From Microbispora corallina (GTDB lineage Bacteria; Actinomycetota; Actinomycetes; Streptosporangiales; Streptosporangiaceae), in the NCBI RefSeq assembly GCF_016863035.1, contig NZ_BOOC01000014.1, positions 62,001-126,000 on the forward strand: 64,000 bases of DNA. Reading direction: 5' to 3'. The translations under genes and the position numbers were made by a program. How positions within the stretch are numbered: the stretch's first letter is position 1; each line of letters starts with the position of its first letter. This document shows positions 25,418 through 29,366 of the stretch, piece by piece. The notes under the pieces are model-generated. The model made no database searches. It was not told the origin of the DNA and worked only from the letters and a program-made list of their open reading frames with translations.

Positions 25418-25514
25418 TTGCGGTCCTATCCGGGTTCCGGTTGGAATCAGGTCGTAACGCTCGCGCGCGACCGGTCATGTGGTGAGTCGGAAGCCCCCAA
25501 GCGAAAGGGAACGC

Positions 25515-26069
25515 ATGGGCCCGCCCGACGACCCCCGGAAGCGGTTCGAAGAGATCTACATGGCCTACTACCCGGCGCTGATGGCCTACGTACGGCGGCG
25601 CGTGGACGCGCCCGACGACGCCGCCGACGCCCTGGCGGAGACCTTCCTCACGGCCTGGCGCCGGATCGACCAGATGCCCCCCGGGCAGGAGGCCCGCCTG
25701 TGGCTGTACGGCGTCGCCCGCAAGGTGCTCGCGGGCGGCCGCCGGAACGCCAGACGCCAGGAAGGTCTCGCCGTACGGCTCCGCGCCGAGCTGGCGACCT
25801 GGACCGCGCCGCCCCCCGATCCGGAGCTCGACGCCGTACGGCAGGCGTTCGGGCGGTTGAAGGACGACGACAGGGAGCTGCTGTCGCTCGTGGGCTGGGA
25901 GGGCCTGAGCGCCTCCCAGGCCGCGACGGTGCTCGGGTGCTCCCCGGGAACCGCCCGGATCCGCCTGCACCGCGCCAGGAAGCGCCTCGCGAGGGAACTC
26001 GGCGCCGGCGGCCTCGACCTGTCCCGATACGGATCACGCGCCGCGGCGCTGGGAGGAGGACGATCGTGA
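25515..26069 (+). CDS. ECF-type RNA polymerase sigma factor
   Basis: The 184-aa protein has sigma region 2 (about residues 14-80, FEEIYMAYYPALMAYVRRRV and AETFLTAWRRIDQMP) and region 4 (about 118-165, LSASQAATVLGCSPGTARIRLHRARKRL), with no region 3, as in group IV sigma factors. ATG 25515 follows GAAAGGGA. Its TGA overlaps the GTG of the next gene, a single-span membrane protein that is probably its anti-sigma or signal partner. A GGAACC/CGTCTA ECF-type promoter lies about 1 kb downstream in front of the TIGR04222/MNIO operon, a plausible target. Confidence 0.9.
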   Translation: MGPPDDPRKRFEEIYMAYYPALMAYVRRRVDAPDDAADALAETFLTAWRRIDQMPPGQEARLWLYGVARKVLAGGRRNARRQEGLAVRLRAELATWTAPPPDPELDAVRQAFGRLKDDDRELLSLVGWEGLSASQAATVLGCSPGTARIRLHRARKRLARELGAGGLDLSRYGSRAAALGGGRS

Positions 26070-26911
26070 AGGCTGACATCGACGGGCTGGTGGCGCGGAT
26101 CGCCCCCGACCCCGGGCCGGGGATGACCCCCGGAGGGCGTGAGCTGCTCGACGAGATCACGGCGGTCCGGCCGGAGCCCGTCGCCGGGACGTCCCCCTGG
26201 CGGCGACTGCGGGTGGCCCTGCCGGTCACGGCGGTGCTCGCGGCCGTCGTCCTGGCCGTGACCTGGGCGCTCCCCGGCGACTCCCGCTCCCTCGGCCTCG
26301 GCGCCGGCCCGGCCGCGGCCCTGGACGTCACGACGAAGGGCGGCTACTACCTGGTCACGGTCGAGGACATGTACGCCGACCCGGCGCGGTACCAGGCCCA
26401 GCTCCGCCACCTCGGACTCGACATCACGCTCGAGCTCGTGCCGGCGACGCCGGCCATGTGGGGCACGGCCGTGGGTCCCGGCCCGATCGGCGGGGGAATC
26501 ACGACCATCGAGGGAACCGGGGACTGCCTGCGGCGTGACCCGTGCACGATCGGGCTGAAGGTCCCCAGGGACTTCCGTGGACAGGCCACCATCAGGCTCG
26601 CGCGCAAGGCGCGTCCCGGGGAGAAGTACGTGCTCATCGCTCCCATCGACGCCCCCGGCGAGCCGCTGCACTGCACGGGGTACGCCGGGAGGACCGTCGA
26701 CGAGGTGCGGGCACTGCTCCGGGTGCGTGGTGTGACGAACGTCCGATTCGCCACGGCGGAGGGCGCCCGGGAGCAGGTGCCGGGCTCGTGGATCGCGCAC
26801 GACGGCGTCATGTCGGCGCCCGACGCGGCGCTCCTGCTGGTCGGCCCCACACAGGACCGTCCGGACGCCCCGGGCCCCGTCTCGTCGCCCGACCCCTGCC
26901 GGCCTTCCTGA
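26066..26911 (+). CDS. Single-span membrane protein paired with the ECF sigma factor
   Basis: The 281-aa product has a cytosolic N-terminus of about 48 residues, one membrane helix (about 50-69, VALPVTAVLAAVVLAVTWAL) and an outside domain with two cysteines in CLRRDPC. A C-terminal segment (about 215-270, GRTVDEVRALLRVRGVTNVRF to LLLVGPT) has the spacing of a PASTA domain, which in other proteins binds wall fragments. The 4-nt overlap with the sigma gene and the topology suggest an anti-sigma or co-sensor. The N-terminal part lacks the HxxxCxxC zinc anti-sigma motif, so direct sigma binding is unproven. Confidence 0.7.
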   Translation: MKADIDGLVARIAPDPGPGMTPGGRELLDEITAVRPEPVAGTSPWRRLRVALPVTAVLAAVVLAVTWALPGDSRSLGLGAGPAAALDVTTKGGYYLVTVEDMYADPARYQAQLRHLGLDITLELVPATPAMWGTAVGPGPIGGGITTIEGTGDCLRRDPCTIGLKVPRDFRGQATIRLARKARPGEKYVLIAPIDAPGEPLHCTGYAGRTVDEVRALLRVRGVTNVRFATAEGAREQVPGSWIAHDGVMSAPDAALLLVGPTQDRPDAPGPVSSPDPCRPS

Positions 26912-27180: not shown

Positions 27181-28257
27181 ATGGAGTTCGTGCTTCTCCT
27201 CGCCGCGCTGGCCGCGGCCGCGCTCGTCGGATCGGCCGCGTCGGCGCTGCGCCGCGAGCACCGCAGGATCCGTTCGGTGACGGCCGTCGGCCGGGGCGAT
27301 CTCGACCACTACGAGCTGGCGTACCTCGCGGGCGGCCCGCGCCGGACCGTCAACACGGCCATCGCCGCCCTGGCCGCCCGGGACTGGATCCGCGTCTCGC
27401 GCGGCGGGCGGGTCACCGCCGTCGCCGGGGCGTCCCCGGTCACGCCCCACCCCGTCGAGCAGGCCGTCCTCGACCTGGCCGCCGTCCCAGGAGGACGTAC
27501 GGCCGGGGAGATCCGTCACGAGATCGGAGACGGGGTCGCGGTGGCCGGGCTGAAGAACCGCCTCATCGGGCAGGGTTTCCTGCTCCCCGACGGCTCCCTG
27601 CAGGGACCCCGGCGGCTCGTCGCGCGGCTGGGCGCCCTCGTGGCGCTCTGCTTCGCCGTCGAGGCCGCCCTGCTCGTGGTCCCGGCCACCGGCGTCGTCC
27701 CGTGGAGCCCGGTGTCCGTGGGGGCGGTGCTGGTCGCCGCCGTCGCCGGGGTGTACGGCCTGCGCACCCGGGCGCGCCACCTCAGGTCGCTGCGCAGCCC
27801 GCTGACCGGGCCCGGCGCGGACGTGCTCCAGCGGGCCCGGATCCGGCAGCCGCGGGCCGCCGTCGCCGCGACCGGCGGGGACGACGCCGCCTTCGCCGGC
27901 TTGACCGGAGCCGTGGCGCTGTACGGCCTCGGCGAGTATGGCGACCAGGGCGTGGCCGCCGAGATCGCCAGGGAGGAGATCCGGCGGCACGGCGAGCAGG
28001 TGGCGTGCGCCTCCGGCTCCTGCGGCGGCGGACCGCCGGCCGGAAACGGCTCGGGGGACTCCGCCTCGCATTCGGGAGACTGGGGCTGGGACTCCGGCGG
28101 GCACTCGGGAGGCCACTCCGGCGGGCACTCGGGTGGGCACTCCTGCGGCTCGGGCGGGCACTCCGGCGGCCACTCGTGCGGGTCGAGCGGCTGCGGGTCG
28201 AGCGGATGTGGTTCGAGCGGGTGCGGCGGCGGAGGTTGCGGAGGCGGCGGTGGGTGA
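27181..28257 (+). CDS. TIGR04222-type membrane protein with His/Cys repeat tail, possible RiPP substrate
   Basis: The 358-aa protein begins with a membrane helix (residues 1-20), then the TIGR04222 core ([32 protein letters not shown] and two related winged-helix-like repeats to about 140), two further membrane helices (about 147-168 and 176-194), and a segment to 270. The last 84 residues are low complexity: Cys276 and Cys281, His every four residues at 308, 312, 316 and 320, then 327 and 331, and Cys322 followed by Cys every five residues at 333, 338, 343, 348 and 353 in GSSGC units, ending in poly-Gly. It shares an 8-nt overlap with a DUF692 oxidase gene, so the tail is the likely target of modification or a metal ligand. 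ATG follows AGGAGGG. Confidence 0.8.
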
Positions 28258-29053
28258 TCTCGGTGTGGGGATCGGATGGCGGCCGGAGATCGACCTCACG
28301 GTTGAGCGGCTCGACGGGATCGGCTTCGTCGAGGTGATCGCAGAGAACGTCGAGCCGGCGCGGCTGCCGGAGTCGCTGGCCGTGCTGCGCGGGCGCGGCG
28401 TCCCCGTGGTCCCGCACGGCGTGGGTCTCGGGGTCGGCGGCGCCGACCGGCCGGACCCTGACCGGCTCGGGCACCTCGCGGCCTGCGCCGGGGCGCTCGG
28501 GTCGACGATCGTGAGCGAGCACCTGGCGTTCGTGCGGGGCGGCGGCATGGAGGCGGGCCACCTGCTGCCCGTGCCCCGCACCCGCGACGCGCTGTCGGTG
28601 ATCGTGGAGAACGTCCGGATCGCGCAGGAGTCGCTCCCGGTGCCGCTCGCGCTGGAGAACGTCGCGGCGCTGTTCGGCTGGCCGGACGACGAGCTGACCG
28701 AGGCCCAGTTCCTGGGGGAGCTGGTCGAGCGCACCGGCGTGAAGCTGCTGGTCGACGTGGCCAACCTGTACACCAACGAGGTCAACCTCGGCCTGGACGC
28801 GCGGGCCGCCCTCGACGCGCTCCCGGTCGACGAGGTGGCGTACGTGCACGTGGCGGGCGGCCACGGCCACGGCGGGATCTGGCACGACACCCACACGGCC
28901 TCGCCGCCGCGGGAGGTGCTCGACCTGCTGACCGAGCTGTGCGGGCGGACGTCGCCGCCGGGGGTGCTGCTCGAGTGGGACGACGCGTACCCGAGCGACG
29001 CGGTCCTCGCGGGCGAGCTGGGCCGGATCCGGGGAGCGATGTCGCGTGCCTGA
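28250..29053 (+). CDS. DUF692 / multinuclear non-heme iron oxidase (MNIO)
   Basis: The 267-aa TIM-barrel protein starts [12 protein letters not shown], the usual DUF692 N-terminus. Candidate metal ligands or active residues in the family positions are H56, H91 (SEHLAF), E136 (LALENVA), D169 and N172 (DVANLYTNE), H200 and H205 (HVAGGH), D213/H215 (WHDTH) and the late LEWDD. Relatives MbnB, TglH and BufB oxidise cysteines of RiPP precursor peptides using mixed-valent iron. GTG 28250 overlaps the TIGR04222 gene by 8 nt, and its end overlaps the helper gene by 8 nt. The chemistry here is inferred. Confidence 0.9.
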
Positions 29054-29366
29054 GCGAACCGGAGACGACGCCCGCGCCTCGCTCGCGGCGGGCCAGGCGC
29101 AGCTGCTGGCCGCCCTCGTCGCCGGCGGCCCGGTGCCCGAGGGCTTCGACGCCGAGCGGGTGCGCGTGCAGGCGCGGAGCCTGGTGGCCAAGCGGAGCGG
29201 CTCGGTGGCCCGGGTCGCGCCCGCCCTGGCCAGGCGGCTCGGCGCCGAGTTCGGGCGCCTGTTCGCCGAGTACGCCGCCACCCGCCCCAAACCGGGGGAA
29301 GGCTCCCGCGCCGACGCCGCAGCGTTCGCCGACTGGCTGGCCGCGCGCGACGCGGGCGGCATCTAG
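29046..29366 (+). CDS. DUF2063-like helper protein of the MNIO cassette
   Basis: A 106-aa all-helical protein. The pattern [20 protein letters not shown] followed by [23 protein letters not shown] and [11 protein letters not shown] resembles the N-terminal part of DUF2063/MbnC-type proteins, which bind the precursor leader and form a complex with the MNIO enzyme (as BufC with BufB). GTG 29046 lies 8 nt inside the DUF692 gene, so the pair is made in step. The family match is by pattern only and should be treated as probable. Confidence 0.65.

Follow-up and report, generated by a model that had tools for sequence, protein, structure and literature searches.

A TIGR04222-MNIO-helper cassette of Microbispora corallina and its cysteine-tailed membrane protein as a candidate tethered substrate

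Which molecule does an MNIO enzyme act on when the only candidate beside it is a membrane protein? The question is raised by three genes of Microbispora corallina, found in a 64,000-nucleotide stretch of contig NZ_BOOC01000014.1 (the window). They encode a TIGR04222 membrane protein (gene 1, 27181-28257), an MNIO/DUF692 enzyme (gene 2, 28250-29053) and a DUF2063-like helper (gene 3, 29046-29366), all on the forward strand. An initial annotation proposed that the substrate is the membrane protein rather than a small peptide, and the comparisons below support this. The preferred reading is that the MNIO and its helper oxidise cysteines of a membrane-tethered tail in the cytosol, perhaps for soft-metal binding; its probability is put at about 0.55.

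The three gene identities are borne out by profile matches, that of the helper being the weaker. Gene 1 (358 aa) scores 90.9 bits against NCBIfam TIGR04222, for which the curated cut-off is 43. Gene 2 (267 aa) matches PF05114 with 255 bits (E 7.2e-76; cut-off 25). Residues H56, H91, E136, D169, H200, D213, H215 and E242 are invariant across 29 MNIO sequences, and they are candidate iron ligands. The conserved His, Glu and Asp positions align with PDB 8hci over residues 119-244. Among the matches listed, the nearest relatives of gene 2 in named genomes are from Streptosporangiaceae, for example Acrocarpospora pleiomorpha (79% identity). Gene 3 (106 aa) is too short for an RRE domain and reaches PF09836/DUF2063 only at E 0.0059, which is under the Pfam cut-off. 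The source genome (8.36 Mb, 121 contigs) contains one TIGR04222 match and one MNIO match; both are the cassette genes.

Bufferins (BufA/BufB/BufC) are a related system, as they also combine an MNIO with a DUF2063-like partner that acts on cysteine, and MNIO_BufB is the closest NCBIfam model to gene 2. The two systems differ in all three components. The window's MNIO scores 180 bits, under the BufB cut-off of 310. The substrate candidate is an integral membrane protein with no match at E 1 to DUF2282, which with Buf2 is one of two alternative bufferin precursor domains. The helper has 106 aa and a DUF2063 match under the cut-off, whereas the PME-type 1 partner of bufferins carries DUF2063 plus an RRE in about 250 aa. 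Methanobactin (MbnABC) is more distant: gene 2 scores 28 bits against the MbnB model (cut-off 325), and MbnA is a small soluble peptide.

Gene clusters of this kind are already in print. TIGR04222-MNIO-PME-type 2 clusters of Actinomycetota have been described by Antoine et al. 2025 (PMC12452194), with the same three kinds of protein, a Cys-rich, low-complexity C-terminal tail and the proposal that the tail is the substrate. According to the sections of that paper considered here, TIGR04222 proteins account for 40% of the signal-less Cys proteins (more than 1,000) whose genes precede that of an MNIO; subsets of them are proposed as MNIO substrates, and the nature of the modification is called open. 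PME-type 2 is the name given there to DUF2063-like helpers without the DUF2063 signature, and gene 3 is probably of this kind. Since TIGR04222 substrates had been proposed in this way, the idea of the initial annotation is known rather than new. No experimental chemistry on the TIGR04222-MNIO family was found in the papers considered here. The cassette is a real, coherent and already catalogued system; a cytoplasmic, tethered tail is a sharper claim than the one in print.

The three genes are tightly linked, as first proposed. Gene 1 and gene 2 overlap by 8 nt (GTGGGTGA, 28250-28257), and gene 2 and gene 3 overlap by 8 nt (GTGCCTGA, 29046-29053); both overlaps were read from the forward strand. 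They had been called identical; their letters differ, so this is true of their length only. On the same strand, a Shine-Dalgarno-like GGAGG (28240-28244) was read within the tail codons, 5 nt before the GTG start of the MNIO gene. In three of the four same-genus relatives, a GTG with an 8-nt overlap is the nearest in-frame start upstream of the aligned MNIO domain; the relatives' candidate GTG sits approximately 35-47 codons ahead of that domain. Spacing between gene 1 and the MNIO gene varies outside the genus.

Fifteen genomes of the window's genus were compared. Five contain a TIGR04222 protein over the cut-off and the same five contain an MNIO, on the same contig and with domain matches about 0.3 kb apart; the linkage is therefore far beyond chance. 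UppS is found in all 15. In the ten cassette-free genomes, the PEPCK match ends 118-322 bp before UppS and there is no cassette match between them, which leaves an empty site. In the four other cassette-bearing genomes, the three genes are located between PEPCK and UppS. Gain and loss affect the cassette as a whole. In the window, an ECF sigma factor gene followed by a further membrane protein gene (25479-26911) also lies between PEPCK and UppS, on the PEPCK side of the cassette; neither was found by tblastn on the cassette strand in stretches from the 14 other genus members.

A wider survey covered 296 genomes drawn evenly from the class, with a TIGR04222 match in 109 (84 over the cut-off) and an MNIO in 76. 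Sequence was taken from every TIGR04222 place over the cut-off and from some weaker ones, with 22 weak rows below the cut-off left out. Of 116 core hits, three with E above 1e-20 were discarded, which leaves 113 proteins. By a fixed rule, 49 of the 113 are Cys-tailed. The rule misses a few: the protein at L158 and one at L085 are Cys-tailed by eye and are counted as without. Forty-eight of the Cys-tailed proteins are in genomes where an MNIO was found; downstream of the 49th (L103), an MNIO gene begins and is cut by the contig end. The 64 proteins without a Cys tail are divided between genomes with an MNIO (37) and without (27). Counted over 89 genomes, 44 have both a Cys-tailed protein and an MNIO, one has a Cys-tailed protein without an MNIO (the cut one), 19 have tail-less proteins with an MNIO and 25 have neither (Fisher p 3e-9, uncorrected for shared descent; both states recur within the window's family). 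Where an MNIO is encoded less than 600 bp downstream, 29 of 33 TIGR04222 proteins are Cys-tailed. For seven Cys-tailed proteins, the fetched stretch shows no MNIO: in six cases the genome encodes one at another place, and the remaining case is the contig-cut L103. Lack of co-conservation had been named as what would refute the initial proposal, and the outcome is favourable: all 49 Cys tails go with an MNIO, one of which is contig-cut.

A second type of MNIO (PF05114 E about 1e-110) is encoded at L189, L190 and L191, in genomes G268, G230 and G211. Genomes G268 and G211 yielded no Cys-tailed TIGR04222 protein.

The association can also be viewed from the enzyme. MNIO and helper were searched with single sequences, given the existence of MNIO-helper fusion proteins. 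The 80 nearest MNIO loci listed are a sample biased towards the window's cluster type. In 62 of these, the 5-kb flanks contain, on the same strand, a gene for a TIGR04222 protein with at least three cysteines after the core. MNIO and helper are fused in 37 loci and separate in 39, and no helper was seen in four; this type-biased share with a helper (76 of 80) compares with PME-type 2 genes in at least 10% of TIGR04222 clusters in Antoine et al. 2025. MNIO-PME fusions are not named in the sections of that paper considered here. The remaining 18 loci have no Cys-tailed TIGR04222 protein. Twelve keep only a tail-less one, 0.5-2.6 kb downstream (11 in Streptomyces and one in an unclassified actinobacterium); six have no TIGR04222 protein, and three of these six are near a contig end. 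Some such MNIOs must therefore have another substrate or none. Because of these exceptional loci, the association runs in one direction only: where there is a Cys tail there is an MNIO, whereas an MNIO can occur without a Cys tail.

The 18 exceptions could be explained if the TIGR04222 protein were a membrane dock or sensor and the MNIO acted on something else, particularly as a tail-less TIGR04222 protein is still encoded nearby in 12 of them. This is improbable, given that it is the Cys tail itself and not the mere domain that tracks the MNIO (49 of 49). In addition, no other frame of at least 40 aa with a Gly/Ser-rich Cys tail, the one make-up scanned for, was found in the 18 exceptional loci.

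Several Streptomyces loci (L162, L164, L173, L175, L259 and L269-L271) encode a tail-less TIGR04222 protein downstream of an MNIO-helper fusion; these proteins have a Cys pair in or after the first helix (MFWVLLLLLAWAVAGTACTRLCLAAV). In at least four Streptomyces loci without a Cys-tailed protein, a Cys-poor membrane protein (MRPRPP..GRG.FSGTGL) is encoded between the MNIO-helper and the tail-less TIGR04222 protein (L271:6424-7212, L251:6528-7367, L234:6419-7318 and L259:6569-7390). Tandem TIGR04222 genes beside one MNIO are present at L070, L168, L170, L179, L075, L085 and L090. In the first four of these, one member of the pair is Cys-tailed and the other tail-less; the tandem proteins perhaps form heteromers.

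In the window's family, the position of the cassette is constant, near PEPCK, UppS and PhoH. Across 24 loci outside this family, gene 1 and the MNIO are present in all 24 and the helper in 20; no further gene is present in more than three. The one ABC-ATPase group among them occurs in three of the 24 loci, with 31-48% identity. The single syntenic place within the family would fit a tail that is plain low-complexity sequence from high-GC repeats, linked to the enzyme by inherited gene order only; tails rich in Gly, Asp and Ser are also common among relatives without an MNIO. Such an explanation is very hard to sustain when Cys tails across nine families in the survey sample are present only where an MNIO exists and when no other neighbour is shared by many loci beyond the window's family.

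The make-up of the tail is consistent with modification. In the window, gene 1 has eight cysteines in its last 86 residues, and all four same-genus relatives with the cassette have a Cys-tailed gene 1. The tail was first described as a His/Cys repeat; the tail is present and its cysteines are conserved, while the His repeats recur in one near relative and are uncommon across the wider set. The last 60 residues of the 49 Cys tails contain 238 cysteines. The next residue is Gly in 207 cases, Ser in 23, Ala in seven and the C-terminus in one; the preceding residue is Gly (142) or Ser (84) in 226 of 238. Spacing between cysteines is 4-8 in 147 of 189 cases, and the last cysteine is 2-4 residues from the C-terminus in 38 of the 49 tails. 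By this pattern, the tail cysteines are regular oxidisable sites. It is likely that the tail is modified by the MNIO of its cassette.

Gene 1 has a confident core and a disordered tail in its AlphaFold2 model (mean pLDDT 80.8). Residues 1-276 are modelled confidently as three long helices and two winged-helix-like units; residues 277-358, the Gly/Ser/His/Cys tail and proposed modification site (28009-28254), are disordered with pLDDT below 50. A hydropathy and charge scan places transmembrane helices at residues 3-20 (27187-27240; model helix 2-31), 150-167 (27628-27681; model helix 141-169) and 178-194 (27712-27762; model helix 177-204). The first winged-helix-like unit, residues 43-80 (27307-27420), is found in the model, has weak Crp-type HTH matches and falls within profile matches to GPP34 and DUF2207_C. 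The second, residues 91-134 (27451-27582), is found in the model and lies inside the same two profile matches. All of these features are on the forward strand.

In profile comparison, the core matches DUF2207_C with a probability of 94.2 (E 1.1e-7) over 174 columns, which include the helical hairpin, and GPP34 with a probability of 87.2 (E 3.9e-6) over 89 columns. The latter match is confined to the tandem winged-helix part of gene 1. The DUF2207_C score is 54.7, against 17.2 for the reversed profile and 16.9 for the best of 60 column shuffles; the GPP34 score is 44.3, against 13.4 and 18.3. A second alignment was weaker, with probabilities of 26.5 (DUF2207_C) and 70.2 (GPP34). DUF2207_C and GPP34 do not match each other (probability 0.4). 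Among 62 family members compared with Pfam, there are 14 weak DUF2207_C hits and three GPP34 hits; conversely, the TIGR04222 model reaches E 2e-7 with a DUF2207 protein, a match that falls short of the model's cut-off. The DUF2207 protein at L272 has a signal-peptide-like start, an outer domain and one transmembrane helix, followed by the DUF2207_C part; from this layout, the winged-helix part of DUF2207_C should be inside. A literature search for TIGR04222 together with DUF2207 and GPP34 gave only Antoine et al. 2025, and the sections considered mention neither DUF2207 nor GPP34.

Arginine and lysine content was used to predict which side of the membrane the tail is on. The set comprised 99 proteins whose core is full-length and for which a simple start-codon rule gave a usable start; the three hydrophobic helices were located in each and Arg plus Lys were counted in their flanks. 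Densities were used rather than raw counts because the short N-terminus biases the latter. In the 46 Cys-tailed proteins, Arg plus Lys per residue is 0.019 before TM1, 0.200 after TM1, 0.207 before TM2, 0.071 in the TM2-TM3 loop and 0.241 after TM3. Density favours an outer N-terminus and an inner tail in all 46; positive residues are more numerous after TM1 than before it in 44 (reverse in none), and after TM3 than in the loop in 44 (reverse in none). The corresponding densities in the 53 other proteins are 0.075, 0.186, 0.181, 0.076 and 0.127; here positive residues after TM1 exceed those before it in 47 (reverse in three), those after TM3 exceed the loop in 36 (reverse in six) and density favours an inner tail in 39. 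By MNIO linkage, the tail is predicted inside for 54 of 60 linked proteins and 31 of 39 others.

The published topology is the opposite: Antoine et al. 2025 (section 16) place the Cys tail in the periplasm, based on predicted topology and AlphaFold2 models. The tail would then be exported and face the cell wall, acting there in the manner of a bufferin, and the MNIO would have to act before export. Two features of the proteins agree with this. The N-terminus could pass for a signal peptide, and TM3 is followed by another hydrophobic stretch (Kyte-Doolittle at least 1.6 over 17 residues) in 12 of the 60 MNIO-linked proteins; if this fourth stretch spans the membrane, the tail is outside. In the window's protein, the start (MEFV) has no positive n-region and the positive residues come after helix 1; the region after TM3 is modelled as a 15-residue helix (234-248), which is short for a spanning helix. 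By density, all 46 Cys-tailed proteins have their positive charges on the side of the winged-helix part and the tail, and DUF2207_C, the nearest relative found, should have its winged-helix part inside. Domains of the winged-helix and GPP34 kinds are typically found in the cytosol. Between the winged-helix part and the tail there are two helices; whether these span the membrane or are buried, both parts should share one side. An exported tail is unlikely. From the charge pattern, the tandem winged-helix fold and the profile homology to DUF2207 and GPP34, which agree, the tail is likely to be in the cytoplasm, on the same side as the MNIO. Surface adhesion, a role suggested by the initial annotation, is disfavoured because the tail is predicted to be cytoplasmic.

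RiPP precursors are usually cut. The TIGR04222 protein could similarly be a leader or carrier whose tail, once modified, is cleaved and set free as a small RiPP. The tail is disordered in the AlphaFold2 model, and gene 1 evolves fast even without it (within the genus, the core with the tail removed is 45-71% identical to that of the window, compared with 85-88% for the MNIO). Release is unlikely, however, as no protease or exporter family is present in more than three of the 24 loci of other families and no conserved cleavage motif was seen by eye in the tails. Metal-related genes are likewise not a regular partner in these 24 loci. Since no gene beyond the three occurs in more than three of them, the copper or soft-metal role stays an analogy; it is the weakest step of the explanation, and a role in copper specifically is doubtful.

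The preferred reading, oxidation of a tethered cytosolic tail, would work as follows. The three genes would form one modification unit. Gene 1 would have its N-terminus outside, followed by the tandem winged-helix domain inside, a two-helix membrane hairpin and the disordered Cys tail in the cytoplasm. The MNIO and its MbnC/DUF2063-like helper would oxidise tail cysteines, chiefly those in Gly-Cys-Gly or Ser-Cys-Gly, while the tail hangs from the membrane. Likely products would be thiooxazole- or oxazolone/thioamide-type groups, as for other Cys-directed MNIOs. The outcome would be a membrane-anchored tail at the inner face that binds a soft metal or has a redox function. A broader possibility, put forward tentatively, is that an MNIO modifies many cysteines of a permanently anchored, cytosol-facing tail in these monoderm bacteria, which might give an inner-face, metallothionein-like coat on a winged-helix platform of the GPP34/DUF2207 type. 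To our knowledge, none of the MNIO products described so far remains anchored on the cytoplasmic side.

New peptide chemistry continues to come from MNIO enzymes, for which TIGR04222 proteins form a large class of candidate substrates. The co-occurrence of tail and enzyme, the presence or absence of the cassette as a unit within the genus, the helper fusions and the prediction of a cytoplasmic tail are new here. With the empty-site strains of the genus and the MNIO-helper fusions, a direct test of the substrate question is within reach. If the tail is cytoplasmic, the difficulty that a cytosolic enzyme would have with an exported tail disappears, and the roles that the product may have change as well.
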